Of a stretch of DNA of 64,000 nucleotides, positions 55,912 through 61,924 are shown one piece after another. This DNA comes from Nesterenkonia sedimenti (GTDB lineage: Bacteria > Actinomycetota > Actinomycetes > Actinomycetales > Micrococcaceae), in contig NZ_JABAHY010000001.1 in assembly GCF_012641515.1 (NCBI RefSeq), forward strand, positions 186,001-250,000, read 5' to 3'. The notes beneath the pieces were generated by a model. That model made no database searches. It saw only the letters and a program-made list of their open reading frames with translations, and was not told the DNA's origin. Made by a program: the position numbers and the translations under genes. The stretch's first letter is position 1, and each line of letters opens with the position of its first letter.

Positions 55912-56155
55912 GGCGCGTTACTCCGACGACTTCCGGCGCGAGGTCATCGCCGCTGCGCGGCAGAGCCACGAGCCGCGATCCCATATAGCTCAGAGGTTTG
56001 GCATCGCCCCAGCGACGCTGAACAATTGGCTCAGCGAGTTCTACGCCGAGAATCCAGAGGAACTCGAGGCCGATCATCAGCGGCTCCAGGATGAGCAAGC
56101 CCGACTGCTGGCGGAGGAAGAAGAACTGCGGAATCAGCTGCCATGGCTCCGGTAG
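55910..56155 (+). CDS. Short IS3-OrfA-like HTH protein
   Basis: 81 aa: YSDDFRREVIAAARQSHEPRSHIAQRFGIAPATLNNWL is a transposase-8/IS3 OrfA HTH domain, followed by a Glu/Arg-rich coiled coil (ADHQRLQDEQARLLAEEEELR) that stops early. No orfB follows, and a pilin-like gene converges two bases later. It may be a remnant of an IS3-type element or a domesticated DNA-binding protein. AAGAGAGACAA lies upstream. Confidence 0.6.
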   Translation: MARYSDDFRREVIAAARQSHEPRSHIAQRFGIAPATLNNWLSEFYAENPEELEADHQRLQDEQARLLAEEEELRNQLPWLR

Positions 56156-56156
56156 A

Positions 56157-56708
56157 TTATTGTCTGCCAAGTTGTCGCTGAAAGACCCCAGCCGATGACC
56201 AGCGCGTTACGTCATGCTCGCCACCGGTTATAGACGTGCACACCCACTCTGCACCCGAAGGAAAGTCACTTGCGCTCCCAGTAGGTTCAGCTGTGCTTAT
56301 TCGCCCCGTAGTCCCTTGCCAAAATTGATGAGCACCAAACTCACTCTGTTCCATCTGTACAGATGATGTCTCGGCGTTTATCCAAATGTCACTGCCATCG
56401 TCTTTGGTGCAATACAGATGCCGCTTGCCATCTATAGCCAGTGACTGTCGACCCAGCACTCCGACATCTGCATAGTTGTCTAATGCGTTACCAATAGCCT
56501 CGTTATTGTGCGGGAACTGTCCTCGGTCAAGCCGGTACATCTCGAAAATAGTTGCTAGCTGGCGCAGATCCGTCTGGGCACTGCTTATCACGGCCCGTTC
56601 TCGCACGCCCGTGTACGCCACGATGCTAATCGCTGCCAAGATGGCAATGACCACGATCACAATCATCAACTCCACAATGGTAAAACCATCTCTCTGGAGT
56701 TTCCTCAT
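56157..56708 (-). CDS. Orphan type IV pilin-like protein
   Basis: 183 aa from ATG 56708 (GGAGTGGCGCT upstream). The N-terminus MRKLQRDGFTIVELMIVIVVIAILAAISIVAYTGV in part is a type III signal: prepilin peptidase site G/FTIVE with Glu+5, then the hydrophobic pilin helix. The soluble part has two Cys (YCTKDDG and WVCTSIT) that could form the pilin disulfide loop. No peptidase, ATPase or PilC gene is in the window, so it depends on machinery elsewhere or is a stray cargo gene. Confidence 0.8.
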   Translation of the reverse strand: MRKLQRDGFTIVELMIVIVVIAILAAISIVAYTGVRERAVISSAQTDLRQLATIFEMYRLDRGQFPHNNEAIGNALDNYADVGVLGRQSLAIDGKRHLYCTKDDGSDIWINAETSSVQMEQSEFGAHQFWQGTTGRISTAEPTGSASDFPSGAEWVCTSITGGEHDVTRWSSAGVFQRQLGRQ

Positions 56709-56967
56709 AGCGCCACTCCTGCGCGGGCGCGCAAAGATGTGTGTGGCTCGCGCCGCTTCGCGGCGCTCATCCCCGCGCTGAGCTTGGCGGAGGCGGCTAG
56801 AAGTGCCTGACAGATATTCAGTTATCTTCATGCTACTTACGTTTATAACTCAGGCACAATAGAAAGACAACAGTAAAATGTTATTGTCAGAGTCAATCTA
56901 TCTTGTTATTTGCAACTTTGTGAAGATTGGCCGAAGTATCCTGCTTGGCCGCTCAGGTCACAACGCG

Positions 56968-57702
56968 TTAAGAGTTCGCCCCTCTAGACTGCAACGGCTC
57001 TCGGAGTCCAAGCTTTATGAGTCGCCGGCGTACCAGATCGGCTGAACAGTTCAGCTGTGCCGCAATAGCTGCCAACGTCAAGCCCTGTTCATGAAGCTCG
57101 ATCATCTGTGCTTGCAGAGAGTCGCCCTTCAGCGATCGTGACCGCTTCAGCCCTCGTTGCGCCACTATCTGCGAGACAGTCTGCCGAGCACAACCCACCT
57201 GCGCTGCGATCTGCTTCACTGGAGCGCCTGCCAGGTACTCCTGGCAGATCAGCCCCTTCTGTTCCTCGGACAGACGCGGCCAAGGCTGATACTCCGCCGC
57301 AGGGGTCTTCCGTTTAGGCTTCTTAGCCTTCCCTGCCTGGAACCGTCCCCAGAGGTCGTGAGCCTCCTGGAGTTTCGCTGTCCACGGGCCGCCTAAGGCC
57401 ACCAAAGGTTTCTTACTAGAAACAGGACCAGAAGTAGATAACCAGCAAGATAACCCGCCCGATGAGGCGGGTTTCTTGTTTTCTCCGGACGTCTCGTTGC
57501 TGTCCGCGTTTCGGGGTTGGTCCTCGATTTCAGTAATCATCTGGCGGGTGGCAGGGTCGAGGTCGTCGATGTGGAGCCAGACTCGGTCGAAGAACACCAG
57601 GTTCAACTGCCGCTTCAGTGAATCAGGGGCTGTGCGATAGGTGCGGCCCATGTCCTCGGCGAGGTCCAGTGCGAGCGTGAGGATCTCTTCGGTGTCACTC
57701 AT
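56968..57702 (-). pseudogene. Serine-recombinase C-terminal remnant fused to double HTH domain
   Basis: The first 60 residues, EEILTLALDLAEDMGRTYRTAPDSLKRQLNLVFFDRV in part, match the C-terminal helical segment of the island recombinase (ALDLAENCGTTYQQAPEPLRRMLNQ). The N-terminal catalytic domain is missing and IS3 orfB sequence lies there instead. After a linker comes a Hin/resolvase-like double HTH: EYLAGAPVKQIAAQVGCARQTVSQIV and LTLAAIAAQLNCSADLVRRRL. The ORF is intact, so the fusion may still be expressed, but it can no longer recombine DNA. Confidence 0.7.
57452..57482 (+). terminator. Intrinsic terminator inside the recombinase remnant
   Basis: AACCCGCC (57452-57459) pairs with GGCGGGTT (57466-57473) around a 6-base loop, followed by TCTTGTTTT. 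It points in the plus direction although no plus-strand gene precedes it now. It occupies the same relative place as the tRNA terminator in the complete recombinase ORF. Confidence 0.65.
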
Positions 57703-57932
57703 ATCGCTCTCCCGGCGGCGGCGAGCTCATCAGCGATGAACCGGTGCCCGAACTCCGGGTCATCAGCATGAACATCGATTGCGGCGTTGAGCAGGTGGGC
57801 CTCCTCCCAATCCCGCTGAGATATCGGGGCTGCTGCCCATTTGTAGAACGCTTGTTTCGTGAAACCCAGAACCCGGCAGGTCACCGCCACCGGCACCCCG
57901 GCGGCGGCAAGGTCACGGACCAGCGGGAACAT
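57699..57932 (-). pseudogene. IS3-family transposase OrfB, N-terminal fragment
   Basis: 77 aa beginning MFPLVRDLAAAGVPVAVTCRVLGFTKQAFYKW, the normal start of OrfB in this IS3 subgroup, and continuing ADDPEFGHRFIADELA before it breaks off. The rve integrase core with its DDE residues is absent. The left part was lost where the recombinase remnant begins, and orfA (59267-59581) is separated from it by the IS110 insertion. Confidence 0.85.
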
Positions 57933-57933
57933 C

Positions 57934-58199
57934 TGTAATGGGTAGTGGCCGACCTGTGGCTGGCTGAGATGCTGAGTTCAGTCCTAGTGCGTGACCCCGG
58001 GTATTTCCGACCCTCCGATTCAAGAGGTGTCTTTAAAATGACGTGTCCGCGCTGGGACCGGCTCGGCTTCTGCGCACAGATGCCTTAATTAGAAGCCTGT
58101 CCGACCGCCAATGAAACGGTGGCCGTGACTCATTACAGATGTGGACTCTGAGCGACCACACGAGCCGGGCAGACCTTATCCGCTCTATGTCCTTAGAGG
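57934..58199 (+). ncRNA. Candidate IS110 bridge RNA region
   Basis: This left-end non-coding stretch is where IS110-group elements encode the bridge RNA. It contains CTTTAAAATGA (58031-58041), which can pair with the right target flank plus core 59267-59277 at all 11 positions (three as G-U); TAGAAGC (58090-58096), identical to 59259-59265 in the right end; and CATTACAGA (58131-58139), the exact complement of core plus left end 57932-57940. A left-target guide was not clearly found. RNA ends are unknown. Confidence 0.6.
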
Positions 58200-59249
58200 A
58201 TGATCATGATTCCAGTCCCTGAAGTTTTCGACTACATCGTGGGCATCGACACCCATGCCCGAACCCATACCTATTGCCTGATCGACTCCCGTACCGGCGC
58301 GATCATTGACAGCGCCCAGTTTCCGACCTCAAAGCCCGGCAACGCGCGGGCGATCACTTGGACCCAACGGCGCAGCAAGAACGGCAACATTCTGGCTGCA
58401 GTCGAAGGTACCGCATCCTACGGCGCCAGCATCACCATGTCTCTCAGAGCAGCCGATATCGAAGTCACCGAAGTCCGCCCTGGCCCTAAGCGAGAACACG
58501 CACACACCGGAAAATCTGACACAATCGATGCCGAGTCCGCCGCACGACGAGTACTGCGTAGCAATGTGGAATCTCTTGCCCAACCCCGCGCTTCCGGTGA
58601 ACGAGCCACTCTGCGCGTACTTCTCTCTTCTCGATCATTAATCGATCAACAGCGCACAGCCAACCGCAACTCTCTTACCGCTCTGCTGCGCAGCTTCGAG
58701 CTGGGCGTCGATGCCCGCCGCCCACTAAAAGACACCCAAATTGCTGCTATTGCTAGATGGCGAGTTGTCACCGACCCTGCCATTGAGCCTCTACGAAGTG
58801 AAGCGAAACGGCTGGCAGCGACCGTGATCGAGCAGACTCGGCTACTGGAGGAAAACCACCAAAAGCTCGCCAAGTTCACCGAGCATTTGGCCCCTGGACT
58901 CCAAGAGATTCAAGGAGTCGGCCCAGTCACCGGAGCGATCCTCGTCACCGTCTACTCCCACCACGGGCGGATCAGCTCAGAAGCTGCCTTCGCGGCACTC
59001 GGTGGCATATCACCACTGCCCGAGTCCTCTGGGAACACCACTAGGCACCGCCTCTCACGATCTGGCGATCGCCAACTCAACAGGGCTATCGAAGTGATCA
59101 CCCGCACCCGCATCAGCTGTGACCCCACGACTCAGGACTACGTGGCCAGAAGACAAGCTGAAGGGCTGAGCAAACGAGAGATCCGTAGATGCCTAAAACG
59201 CTACATCTGCCGAGCCCTCTACCGAGAGCTGAAGACTCGCATGGCTTGA
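58200..59249 (+). CDS. IS110-family transposase (bridge-RNA-type recombinase)
   Basis: 349 aa. The N-terminal RuvC-like DEDD domain shows YIVGIDTHARTHTY (first Asp), LAAVEGTASYG (Glu) and HTGKSDTIDAESAARR (Asp pair). A coiled coil follows, and the C-terminal Tnp domain has IQGVGPVTGAILVTVY and SPLPESSGNTTRHRLSRSGDRQLN with the candidate nucleophile Ser. The length is within the IS110 range and there is no frame damage, so the element looks active. ATG 58200 or ATG 58206 may be used. Confidence 0.92.
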   Translation: MIMIPVPEVFDYIVGIDTHARTHTYCLIDSRTGAIIDSAQFPTSKPGNARAITWTQRRSKNGNILAAVEGTASYGASITMSLRAADIEVTEVRPGPKREHAHTGKSDTIDAESAARRVLRSNVESLAQPRASGERATLRVLLSSRSLIDQQRTANRNSLTALLRSFELGVDARRPLKDTQIAAIARWRVVTDPAIEPLRSEAKRLAATVIEQTRLLEENHQKLAKFTEHLAPGLQEIQGVGPVTGAILVTVYSHHGRISSEAAFAALGGISPLPESSGNTTRHRLSRSGDRQLNRAIEVITRTRISCDPTTQDYVARRQAEGLSKREIRRCLKRYICRALYRELKTRMA

Positions 59250-59266
59250 CAGAAGGCATAGAAGCG

Positions 59267-59581
59267 TCATTTTGGGGAGGCCCCACCCAGCTTCAAATTC
59301 GCCTGGGAGAGATACGCCGCAGCTTCGCGCAGGACCTTGTTCTCCTGCTCCAGCTCACGGATCCGGCGCAGCATCTTCGCCTGTTCCCGAGACTCCTCAG
59401 CGTCCTTAGCCGGCTCGATCCCGTGCTCTTCGAGCTTCGCGGCCCGGACCCAGGACTGCAGCGCAGATTTCGAGCAGCCCATATCCGCGCAGACCTGCTT
59501 CTGGCTCATCTCGCCAGCAACCAGCTCCACGGCGGTGCGACGGAACTCCTCGGTGTAGACGACTTTCGGCATGACTTCCAT
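59267..59581 (-). pseudogene. IS3-family transposase OrfA, intact frame but element disrupted
   Basis: 104 aa: TEEFRRTAVELVAGEMSQKQVCADMGCSKSALQSWVRAA in part is the OrfA HTH, followed by a leucine-zipper region RRIRELEQENKVLREAAAYL. The stop TGA is formed where the IS110 core TC joins the IS3 sequence. OrfAB cannot be made because orfB is separated and truncated. The IS3 left end must lie between here and the adh stop at 59643, but its inverted repeat was not identified. Confidence 0.85.
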
Positions 59582-59642
59582 CCTTCCTGCTTTCTAAGCA
59601 GTCTTGAAGTCAACCGAACCTTCAGCAGACCCGTGTGAGTCC

Positions 59643-60668
59643 TCATCTGGTGTAGTCGATGACCACGCGACCGTCGATCTTGCCGTGTCGCATTTCGTCC
59701 AGAATCGCGTTGATATCGTCCAGTGGCCGCTTGGAATACGTGGGGTGGATCAGCCCCCGTGCGTAGAAGTCCAGGGCTTCGACCATGTCCTGCCGGGTTC
59801 CGACGATGGATCCGCGGATGGTCAGGCCTTTGAGCACAATGTCGAAGATCGGGGCCGGGAAGTCCCCTGGGGGCAGTCCGTTGAACACGATGGTCCCGCC
59901 GCGACGGGTCATACTGATCGCTTGCCCAAAGGCGCTCGGGTGTACAGCGGTGACCAATACTCCATGAGCACCGCCGATCTGCTCCTGGATCTCATGGGCA
60001 GGATCGGTTCCCATGGCGTTGAGGGTGAGCTCAGCCCCGTGCTTCTTGGCCAAGGCGAGCTTGTCATCGGCAATGTCTACTGCAACAACGCGCATGCCCA
60101 TGGCCACCGCGTACTGAACAGCAATATGCCCCAGACCACCGATGCCTGAGATCACGACCCACTGGCCGGGGCGGACGTCAGTCATCTTCAACCCCTTGTA
60201 CACGGTCACGCCAGCACAGAGCACTGGGGCGATTTCATGGGGGTCGGCACCTTCCGGGATGGCCGCAGCATGGCTGGCCTCGACCAGCATGTATTCGCCG
60301 AAGGATCCGTCTGAGGAGTAGCCGCCGTTGAGCTGATCTTCGCACAGGGTCTCCCACCCGGTCCGGCAGTACTGGCAGTGACCGCAGGCCCTCCACAACC
60401 AGGCATTGCCTACGGTCTGGCCAACCTGTATGTTCGTCACCCCCTCGCCGAGCTTTTCCACAATGCCTACTCCCTCGTGTCCGGGAATGAGGGGCAGTGT
60501 GGGCTTTACCGGCCAGTCTCCTTCGGCAGCGTGCAGATCGGTATGGCAGACTCCCGAGGCGATCAGTTTCACCAAGACCTGACCGGGGCCGGGTTCCGGC
60601 ACGGGCTGGTCTGTGACGGCAAGCTCCTTGCCGAAATCTTCCACTACTGCTGCAGTCATAACTGACAT
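59643..60668 (-). CDS. Zinc-dependent alcohol dehydrogenase (AdhP-like)
   Basis: 341 aa from ATG 60668, which has AAAAGGAG upstream. Catalytic zinc ligands: ASGVCHTDLHAAEGDW (Cys, with His in PGHEGVGIVEK) and the structural zinc loop with four cysteines CGHCQYCRTGWETLC. The NAD loop is ISGIGGLGHIAVQYA. This is the propanol-preferring class I type that oxidises short primary alcohols to aldehydes, which the aldehyde dehydrogenase nearby could take to acids. First host gene right of the island. Confidence 0.92.
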   Translation of the reverse strand: MSVMTAAVVEDFGKELAVTDQPVPEPGPGQVLVKLIASGVCHTDLHAAEGDWPVKPTLPLIPGHEGVGIVEKLGEGVTNIQVGQTVGNAWLWRACGHCQYCRTGWETLCEDQLNGGYSSDGSFGEYMLVEASHAAAIPEGADPHEIAPVLCAGVTVYKGLKMTDVRPGQWVVISGIGGLGHIAVQYAVAMGMRVVAVDIADDKLALAKKHGAELTLNAMGTDPAHEIQEQIGGAHGVLVTAVHPSAFGQAISMTRRGGTIVFNGLPPGDFPAPIFDIVLKGLTIRGSIVGTRQDMVEALDFYARGLIHPTYSKRPLDDINAILDEMRHGKIDGRVVIDYTR

Positions 60669-60733
60669 GTCGGCTCCTTTTGTCACAAGTGGTTTTCAGG
60701 TGCACTTGTGACGTTAGCCACACTGAGGTTGCG

Positions 60734-61924
60734 TCAAGGTTGCATACGTGCCACCAGTGCTGCACGCTGCGGGGAATCCGGGGGCAGCAGCCGCAGTGCG
60801 GTGTAGACCACCTGCTCATCGCGGGCAGCCTCAGACAGTTGGAGGTACCTCAACAACTCCTCAGGCGTACCGTCTGAGAGCAATGCTTCACGCAGCGCCG
60901 CCGAGATGTGTTGGCGCAGCTCCATAATGCCGGGAGCCTCAGAATTCGGCAGCAGCGCCCCTCCGTAGATGTCCAGTGCGGTGCTGCGATCGCCGGCGGT
61001 CAGTGCCGTGACCACTGTCAGCGCATCCAGATCCAGAGGGGAGGAGAGCCGGTAGGGTCGTGATTCCAGGTCCATGCCAGCAGCGGCTGGGGTAGACCTG
61101 AGGATTCTGCGGAGTCGAACAATCTCAGCACGGAGCGTGACTTCATGGCCGGGCTCGCCGAAGATGAGCTCCGCCAGTTCCCCAGCACTATGCCCCCTGC
61201 CGGAGGTGGAGCCGTCCCAGGCGAGCAGGGTGAGAATCTCTGCATGGCGCAGGCTCAGCGACTCCCGGGCTGCGGCAATACCGATCTGTGGCCGGCGGGT
61301 TCCCAGCGTGGTCAGCTGGGCAAGGCCGGTGTCCGCCGGCAGAACCTTGAGCTCTGCCTCCGCTGCCGAGATGGCTGCTTGAATAAGCGGCAGCGAATGG
61401 GTGGCCACTGCCATCTCGCCCCCCGTGAGGTCCACCACGCCCAGCAGGCCGCCGGTGTGGGGATTGCAGATCGGTGCCGCAGAGCAGGAGAACTGGTGTG
61501 CCGAGGAAGCGAAATGCTCCTCCTGATGAACCTGGACACCCTGCCCGGTGATCAGCGCCACGCCAGGCGCTGACGTGCCGATAGCCTCCTCGGACCACGT
61601 GGCCCCTGGCTGAAACGCTGAGCCCTCAGCTAGGCGCAGGGCCCGCCGGTCCCCATCCACCCAGAGCAGCCTGCCCTCCGCATCTCCGATTGCCACGACC
61701 AGCCCGGCGTCGGCAGCAGGTTGCACCAGAAGCTTCTCAAAGATGGGAAGCACCTGGCGGAGGGGATGTTCCCTGCGGTAGGCGCCGAGATCGCTGTCAT
61801 CCATTTCCACCGGAGCCAACGCGGAACCAGGATCCCGCAAAAACTGCGCTGAACGGTGCCAGGACTCGCGCAGCGCCGGCCTGAGTGCGCTCCAGGTCTG
61901 AGGGTCGTCAGGGACTGCCTTCAT
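60734..61924 (-). CDS. GAF-domain transcriptional regulator of the alcohol/aldehyde locus
   Basis: 396 aa. The N-terminal part RESWHRSAQFL and the sensor FQPGATWSEEAIGTSAPGVAL...SAHQFSCSAAPICNPHTGGLLGVVDLTG in part are the AcoR-type GAF region. Instead of a sigma-54 AAA domain it has a C-terminal winged-helix-like region (LSLRHAEILTLLAW...GHEVTLRAEIVRLRRIL), as in actinobacterial relatives. It is divergent from the aldehyde dehydrogenase and followed by adh, so it likely activates both in response to alcohols or aldehydes. Confidence 0.82.
   Translation of the reverse strand: MKAVPDDPQTWSALRPALRESWHRSAQFLRDPGSALAPVEMDDSDLGAYRREHPLRQVLPIFEKLLVQPAADAGLVVAIGDAEGRLLWVDGDRRALRLAEGSAFQPGATWSEEAIGTSAPGVALITGQGVQVHQEEHFASSAHQFSCSAAPICNPHTGGLLGVVDLTGGEMAVATHSLPLIQAAISAAEAELKVLPADTGLAQLTTLGTRRPQIGIAAARESLSLRHAEILTLLAWDGSTSGRGHSAGELAELIFGEPGHEVTLRAEIVRLRRILRSTPAAAGMDLESRPYRLSSPLDLDALTVVTALTAGDRSTALDIYGGALLPNSEAPGIMELRQHISAALREALLSDGTPEELLRYLQLSEAARDEQVVYTALRLLPPDSPQRAALVARMQP

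Follow-up and report, generated by a model that had tools for sequence, protein, structure and literature searches.

An intact IS110-group element with a predicted bridge RNA, inserted between orfA and orfB of an IS3 element in Nesterenkonia

Described IS110-group systems and the Nesterenkonia element

Two members of the IS110 group come closest to the element described here: IS621, whose own target is REP, and ISEc21, which is enterobacterial. Passages of the papers on IS621 describe an upstream RNA with a target loop and a donor loop, left and right target guides (LTG, RTG) and left and right donor guides (LDG, RDG) that obey a strand rule, a sigma-70 promoter at the joined ends, and a DEDD and Ser recombinase (PMC11208160, PMC11208158); our element resembles IS621 in each of these respects. 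The IS621 core nearly always has T as its second base and is less strict about its first (passages of PMC11208158); in our elements it is a C that is nearly invariant at the second position, again with a looser first base. The two systems differ in their core (CT in IS621, TC here), in their target, and in their recombinases, which are only distantly alike (profile E-value of 1.9e-11 to structure 8wt6). The recombinase of ISCro4 (structure 9t56) is another relative (profile E-value of 1.6e-9). ISEc21, as presented in passages of PMC11187229, is likewise an IS110-group element with a guide RNA (seekRNA) that directs it into IS3-family elements and with a promoter at its joined ends; its target lies in the IS3 DDE catalytic domain, at the codons that surround the second D, whereas our element is found at the orfA/orfB junction and in actinobacteria. 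A natural guide change, in ISMch6, is described in the same passages (PMC11187229), and those of PMC12500396 report an IS110 element in Kocuria with no target named. We found no paper on the IS3-junction target among titles, abstract openings and passages of PMC8944449, PMC10214660, PMC12500396, PMC11208160 and PMC11187229, a scope that leaves out most subscription papers and ISfinder. The mechanism is already known from IS621 and ISEc21, the latter targeting IS3 at another site; the target described here, the use of a TC core and a natural test across the whole clade are new.

The element is an intact IS110-group insertion sequence occupying positions 57934-59268 of a 64,000-nt stretch of a Nesterenkonia genome (hereafter the window), where it separates orfA from orfB in an IS3 element. 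We consider it very probable that it uses a bridge RNA and was placed at this junction by its guides. The features of the locus are as follows.

57711..57932, minus strand: IS3 OrfB remnant, 74 codons matched
57924..57933, plus strand: left target CGGGAACATC, including the core TC at 57932-57933; antisense to IS3 OrfB
57934..59268, plus strand: whole IS110-group element, 1335 bp with one TC core counted in
57934..57939, plus strand: TGTAAT, opening the left end; right donor half, and -10-like box after joining of the ends
57944..58162, plus strand: predicted bridge RNA, matched at 170 bits by model R1, of which the window is itself one row
57947..57965, plus strand: 5' hairpin of the predicted bridge RNA (consensus fold, helix columns 5-24)
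57998..58007, plus strand: LTG, CGGGTATTTC, placed by anchors in aligned relatives
58009..58031, plus strand: hairpin closing the target-binding loop (consensus fold, helix 74-101)
58032..58041, plus strand: RTG, TTTAAAATGA, from the guide table of relatives
58090..58099, plus strand: LDG, TAGAAGCCTG, with a variable base agreeing with the donor end in 43/43 elements
58131..58139, plus strand: RDG, CATTACAGA, with a variable base agreeing in 54/54 rows
58200..59249, plus strand: DEDD/Tnp recombinase, 349 aa, open reading frame with both IS110 Pfam domains
59246..59251, plus strand: TTGACA, -35-like box of the right end; joining of the ends leaves 17 nt between it and the -10-like box
59258..59268, plus strand: ATAGAAGCGTC, left donor half and donor core TC
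59269..59581, minus strand: IS3 OrfA (HTH_Tnp_1), severed from OrfB by the insertion

Elsewhere in the window, an open reading frame on the minus strand (56157-56831) has a type IV pilin-like start (GFTIVELMIVIVVIAILAAI), as judged by eye only.

Ends, recombinase and predicted bridge RNA

The letters and coordinates of the element, and the left-end segments read in the original prediction, proved correct. The target core TC lies at 57932-57933 and the donor core TC at 59267-59268, next to the first base of the right flank (59269). A vacant IS3 site (L234), nearly identical to that of the window (98% in both halves), reveals that one TC became two on insertion and that nothing beyond the core was duplicated at the window junctions, as is characteristic of the IS110 group. 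The same assignment follows from the layout of the element, with 266 nt of non-coding left end upstream of the transposase gene and only 19 nt after its stop codon; in the IS1111 group the guide RNA lies instead in a long right end. The core sets the element apart from IS621 but not from the IS110 group. The predicted TC core is borne out by relatives: the target core of the IS3-targeting group (n=36) is TC in 25, GC in 9 and AC in 2, and its second base is C in 36/36 of this group and 17/18 of the others (53/54 rows), with T, G, A or C as first base.

The recombinase gene is open throughout, as predicted, and its product carries the two domains of the group, PF01548 (DEDD RuvC-like, E-value of 1.5e-18) and PF02371 (Transposase_20, E-value of 6.7e-17). 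Residues D17, E69, D107, D110 and S277-G278 are invariant across 10 aligned recombinases including that of the window; all of these align with IS621 except D17, which falls outside the alignment and was assigned by position. Another Nesterenkonia genome carries a near-identical copy of the element (100%, rounded, over 1334 bp, with a protein identity of 99.4%).

These observations bear on whether this is an ordinary bridge-RNA IS110 that has since become inactive, its guide match being a relic. Two mismatches of the LTG at the window insertion and the presence of an internally deleted copy in the same genome speak in favor of this idea, which we nonetheless regard as unlikely given the intact reading frame, the retained catalytic residues, the presence of all guides and promoter boxes, and a near-identical element that occupies another site in N. 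sphaerica. The deleted copy (L002, contig 34) is 723 bp long and 84-86% identical, keeps the bridge RNA and both ends, and also sits in an IS3. In two further loci (L034 and L035) an intact right end lies in an IS3, and other DNA has taken the place of most of the left end, including target loop and left donor guide.

Joining the two ends would form a promoter-like sequence in every element in which both were found: TTGAC and TSTAAT are separated by 17 nt (32 elements) or 18 nt (11 elements) in 43/43 cases, and TTGAC arises by chance in 152/8600 shuffled right ends. A right end was recognisable in 43/54 rows of the guide table described below and in none of the other 11/54.

The RNAalifold consensus of 36 left ends predicts a 5' hairpin followed by two internal loops, the target loop being 5' of the donor loop. 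The LTG faces the RTG in the first loop and the LDG faces the RDG in the second. Compensatory changes occur at 38/52 consensus pairs across these 36 sequences, and 92.9% of cells are paired, against 79.1% in shuffled alignments (0/500 shuffles reach the observed value) and 33-46% when the structure is slid along the alignment. The arms of the target loop measure 13 nt in 115/117 (left) and 117/117 (right) model matches. Folded alone, the window sequence has a minimum energy of -81 kcal/mol (z-score of -2.89). As to the check attached to the original prediction, the guides lie in two internal loops of the 36-sequence consensus and not in its stems; part of the LTG is paired in the single-sequence fold. 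Overall the predicted RNA shares with the IS621 type its two-loop structure and four guides that are complementary to target and donor, overlap at the core and covary with their sites, with the exceptions listed below. An Rfam scan of positions 56000-61500 returned only two sub-threshold matches, which we take as chance.

Covariation of guides, donor ends and targets

Read from the window sequence alone, the case for a bridge RNA was suggestive. To estimate how often such matches arise by chance, we generated 4000 dinucleotide-shuffled versions of the 266-nt left end. Both predicted donor segments are present and rarely arise by chance: the 7-mer TAGAAGC (58090-58096) in 59/4000 shuffles, and the 9-mer at 58131-58139, whose sequence CATTACAGA is the exact reverse complement of TC-TGTAATG, in 0/4000. 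The proposed right-target guide (58031-58041, CTTTAAAATGA, 11/11 with three G-U pairs) was at the right position, while its match alone is insignificant (226/4000 shuffles, 5.7%), and an 8/8 right-target match appears in 1283/4000. The left target guide, described at first as the missing piece, is in fact present as CGGGTATTTC at 57998-58007. It matches its own target CGGGAACATC at 7 identical and 1 wobble position out of 10, with two mismatches, and CGGGTACTTC, the target of the nearest relative (L030 and L031), at 9 identical and 1 wobble position out of 10. In the window alone this match is also insignificant, since 3806/4000 shuffles contain an 8/10 match. Only the donor-guide matches are strong in a single sequence, and the target guides were therefore settled by comparison.

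We collected relatives through a genome scan, from which the best 80 of 209 relatives (40-99% identity) were used, and added more from plasmid and genus- and order-level searches. A scan of viral contigs found no relative, and a class-wide protein search at an E-value of 1e-100, with few candidates scored per genome, returned only the window's own genome and one other (G025). The left ends of relatives align through two GTGACTC box repeats and two GTCC boxes, and fixed rules on these anchors give the four guides in a table of 54 rows; the right guide of L070 and the right end of L061 were set by hand. Excluded from the table were L034 and L035 (left end replaced), L039 (run of N), L001 (the window), L003 (part of L002), repeats of the same insertion (L004 of L052, L007 of L030, L008 of L031, L020 of L043, L028 of L023, and L025 of L100), and partial or distant loci (L011-L019, L026, L027, L074-L099 and L101-L108).

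Guides and targets covary across this table. LTG-target pairing averages 8.28/10 over 36 unique pairs, against a permuted mean of 5.89 and maximum of 6.89, and RTG-target pairing averages 6.73/8 over 22 unique pairs, against 4.89 and 6.09 (0/20000 permutations in both cases, kinship being ignored). The 18 elements with other targets behave alike, with a left-guide mean of 6.07 against 3.44 permuted (14 unique pairs, first 8 nt; 0/20000) and a right-guide result reached by 1/20000 permutations (8 unique pairs). Within the IS3 group alone the left-guide test is again reached by 0/20000 permutations and the right-guide test is weak (409/20000). On the donor side, the variable base of the LDG agrees with the donor end in all 43 elements (C/C 24, A/A 11, G/G 8), with 0/20000 whole-guide permutations reaching the observed agreement; for the RDG, with agreement in every row, 5/20000 do. 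It could be argued that the recombinase itself reads the site through protein-DNA contacts and that RNA complementarity is incidental, as the conservation of the core C and of the end sequences might suggest. We consider this very improbable, and reject specificity by protein only, because guides and targets covary across unrelated sites; in addition, the RNA-structure model fixes the position of the guide without reference to the target.

The covariation has exceptions. In one of the 54 rows (L052), a CTTTT-type guide is found in an ATTTT-type site. The right flank of L033 is a misfit (4/8), L060 and L072 match on the left only after a one-base register shift, and L055-L057 and L071 match at only 6-7 of 10 positions. 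In a tree of 45 of the 54 rows, IS3-targeting elements form one branch (support of 100/100) of 28 rows. Within the IS3 group the target switched three times independently (the third being L052) and the guide followed twice, too few events for a test.

Comparison also refined the right guide. The element of L030 has the same right guide as the window and sits at ATTTTGACGG rather than ATTTTGGGG, and the three outer G-U pairs look incidental, lying outside the pairing rule. As for the prediction that other copies would share the target, near-identical left ends are indeed found at IS3 sites with ATTTT and CGGGTA, while GGGG is not always present; the right guide is thus shorter than was claimed, yet specific. 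The reading as a bridge RNA with the target loop first, the donor loop second and the proposed strand rule is supported by the relatives.

We then turned to elements outside the RNA model. At an E-value of 1e-6 or better, model R1 has matches in 60/396 genomes of the order, including the element's own genome and some already used. The listing comprised 117 places, of which 10 were already in the guide table, 80 were taken and the 27 weakest left out; 53 more loci were searched with R1, and 35 of these entered the test set together with the window. Apart from the window there were 116 matches, which yielded 103 contexts once repeats and short flanks had been removed and 102 once a context with N was dropped; the guide of L086 and the IS3-type element L211 are closely related to rows of the table. 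The LTG position in these further rows was fixed by the RNA fold, without reference to the target. The LTG matches the junction at 8/10 or better (identity or wobble) in 87/102 contexts, against a permuted mean of 7.9 and maximum of 16. With one context per distinct LTG the figure is 49/59 (permuted mean 3.8, maximum 10), and dropping one guide shared with the table leaves 86/101. Registers of 10, 11, 12, 13 and 14 nt upstream of the model start account for 5, 6, 29, 43 and 6 contexts; the best register is thus 12-13 nt, against 10 in the window, and the 10-14 range was chosen after the scan, with permutations using the same range. Two other IS110-type bridge RNAs of the window's genome (L160 and L184, contigs 11 and 56) have other guides, and their left flanks fit at 9/10 and 8/10.

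The IS3 junction, other targets and a model for insertion

The predicted IS3 orfA/orfB target is supported by the flanks of relatives. Elements with a TGTAAT end have antisense IS3 OrfB on their left in 34/36 cases and antisense OrfA on their right in 31/33, and these counts are unchanged without self-hits and without the L042 query (an OrfB query with no Pfam match); Pfam rve domains are found in three OrfB queries. The 18 elements with a TCTAAT end have no IS3 OrfB match on the left or OrfA match on the right. The left OrfB match starts at most 5 nt from the junction in 25/34 cases, and in the others the OrfB start is unmatched or the frame is broken; the match of L040 is weak (E-value of 7e-5). 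Two elements lack a left match. L009 still has 46 nt from an OrfB start next to the element, and L047, outside any IS3, is found next to a gene for proline dehydrogenase; its site is CGGGAACGTC-ATTTT, which its RTG matches at 8/8 and its LTG at 7/10 with wobble. This site fits the guide of L047, which makes sequence recognition separable from the IS3 context.

The presence of IS3 flanks in nearly all close relatives, together with the single branch formed by IS3-targeting elements, could also reflect one ancient insertion, after which IS110 and IS3 traveled as a composite and shared the site by descent. We judge this extremely improbable. The elements of the window and of L030 are almost identical and their host IS3s differ (the OrfA halves cannot be aligned by blastn, and OrfB is 76% identical over the aligned part), which implies separate insertions and refutes composite descent as a general account. 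Moreover, host OrfB and OrfA identities to the queries range from 34 to 90% (self-hits excluded), two target subtypes pair with two guide subtypes, and L047 lies outside IS3. The second target subtype, CAAAAG-GC-TCTACCCG, accompanies a changed guide.

Read on the strand of the IS3, the site in the window is CCCCAAAAT-GA-TGTTCCC; here orfA ends, with an AAAA run, and orfB begins. According to passages of PMC8944449, which concern IS911, IS3 elements produce OrfAB through a frameshift at slippery lysine codons, and the AAAA run may be the slip site here.

Some relatives with a different guide are inserted in other transposon sequences. Two (L059:1146-2225 and L064:1847-2224) are inside another IS110 recombinase gene, at codons RCL-KRY. 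L061 (417-616, 2007-3122) has a flank that looks like a bridge-RNA donor loop from another IS110; a second bridge-RNA model match (77 bits) ends at the insertion, and an IS110 recombinase gene follows shortly after. L063 adjoins an IS110 gene. A Pfam scan of selected flank open reading frames of L062, L065, L066, L067, L068, L070 and L073 found no mobile-element host. An integrase-core-domain gene adjoins L060.

On contig 45, the window's genome also has two chimeric IS3s without an IS110 (L227:1498-2287 and L229 around 1801), in which OrfA and OrfB are reciprocally exchanged at the site that the IS110 targets. In L227 the OrfA half is of the window type (98%) and the OrfB half of the L030 type (92%); in L229 the OrfA half is of the L030 type (98%) and the OrfB half of the window type (97%). 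Unmixed IS3 partners exist elsewhere in the genus (L234, L237; L255, L256, L262). The breakpoints lie at the target, which L229 reads exactly and of which L227 falls short by about 4 nt. An exchange between two occupied IS3s would explain these chimeras; homologous or illegitimate recombination may instead have produced them. It is conceivable, though we hold this only tentatively, that the clade is specialised in parasitising functional sequences of transposons (the IS3 junction in 34/36, the IS110 gene in L059 and L064, the bridge-RNA donor loop in L061), with its recombinase reshuffling IS3 OrfA/OrfB modules at the target (L227, L229).

Returning to guide-directed insertion, we propose the following model, in which the ends, guides, fold, covariation, target and promoter-like boxes are read from sequence, and the circle, its transcription, the action of the recombinase and strand exchange are modeled on IS621 and ISEc21 by homology. 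The joined ends of a circular intermediate would form the promoter TTGACA-17-TGTAAT and drive an RNA of roughly 215 nt with two internal loops. The donor loop would pair with the joined ends AGAAGCG-TC-TGTAATG, and the target loop with CGGGTANNTC-ATTTT, that is, on the IS3 strand, TAC-CCG (Tyr-Pro) at the start of orfB and the AAAA run ending orfA. The DEDD/Ser recombinase would exchange strands at the core with its near-invariant C, leaving the element antisense at the orfA/orfB junction and the two halves of the IS3 transposase separated.

These insertions provide a natural test of the bridge-RNA code in actinobacteria, in which guide, donor end and target can be compared over many insertions, with one guide-fitting site outside IS3. 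The lineage of TC-core recombinases, with a target rule of 10 nt on the left and about 8 nt on the right (core included), could be tested for programmable recombination. Finally, the locus points to a way in which one transposon may tame another, namely by breaking up the two-frame transposase gene of the latter.
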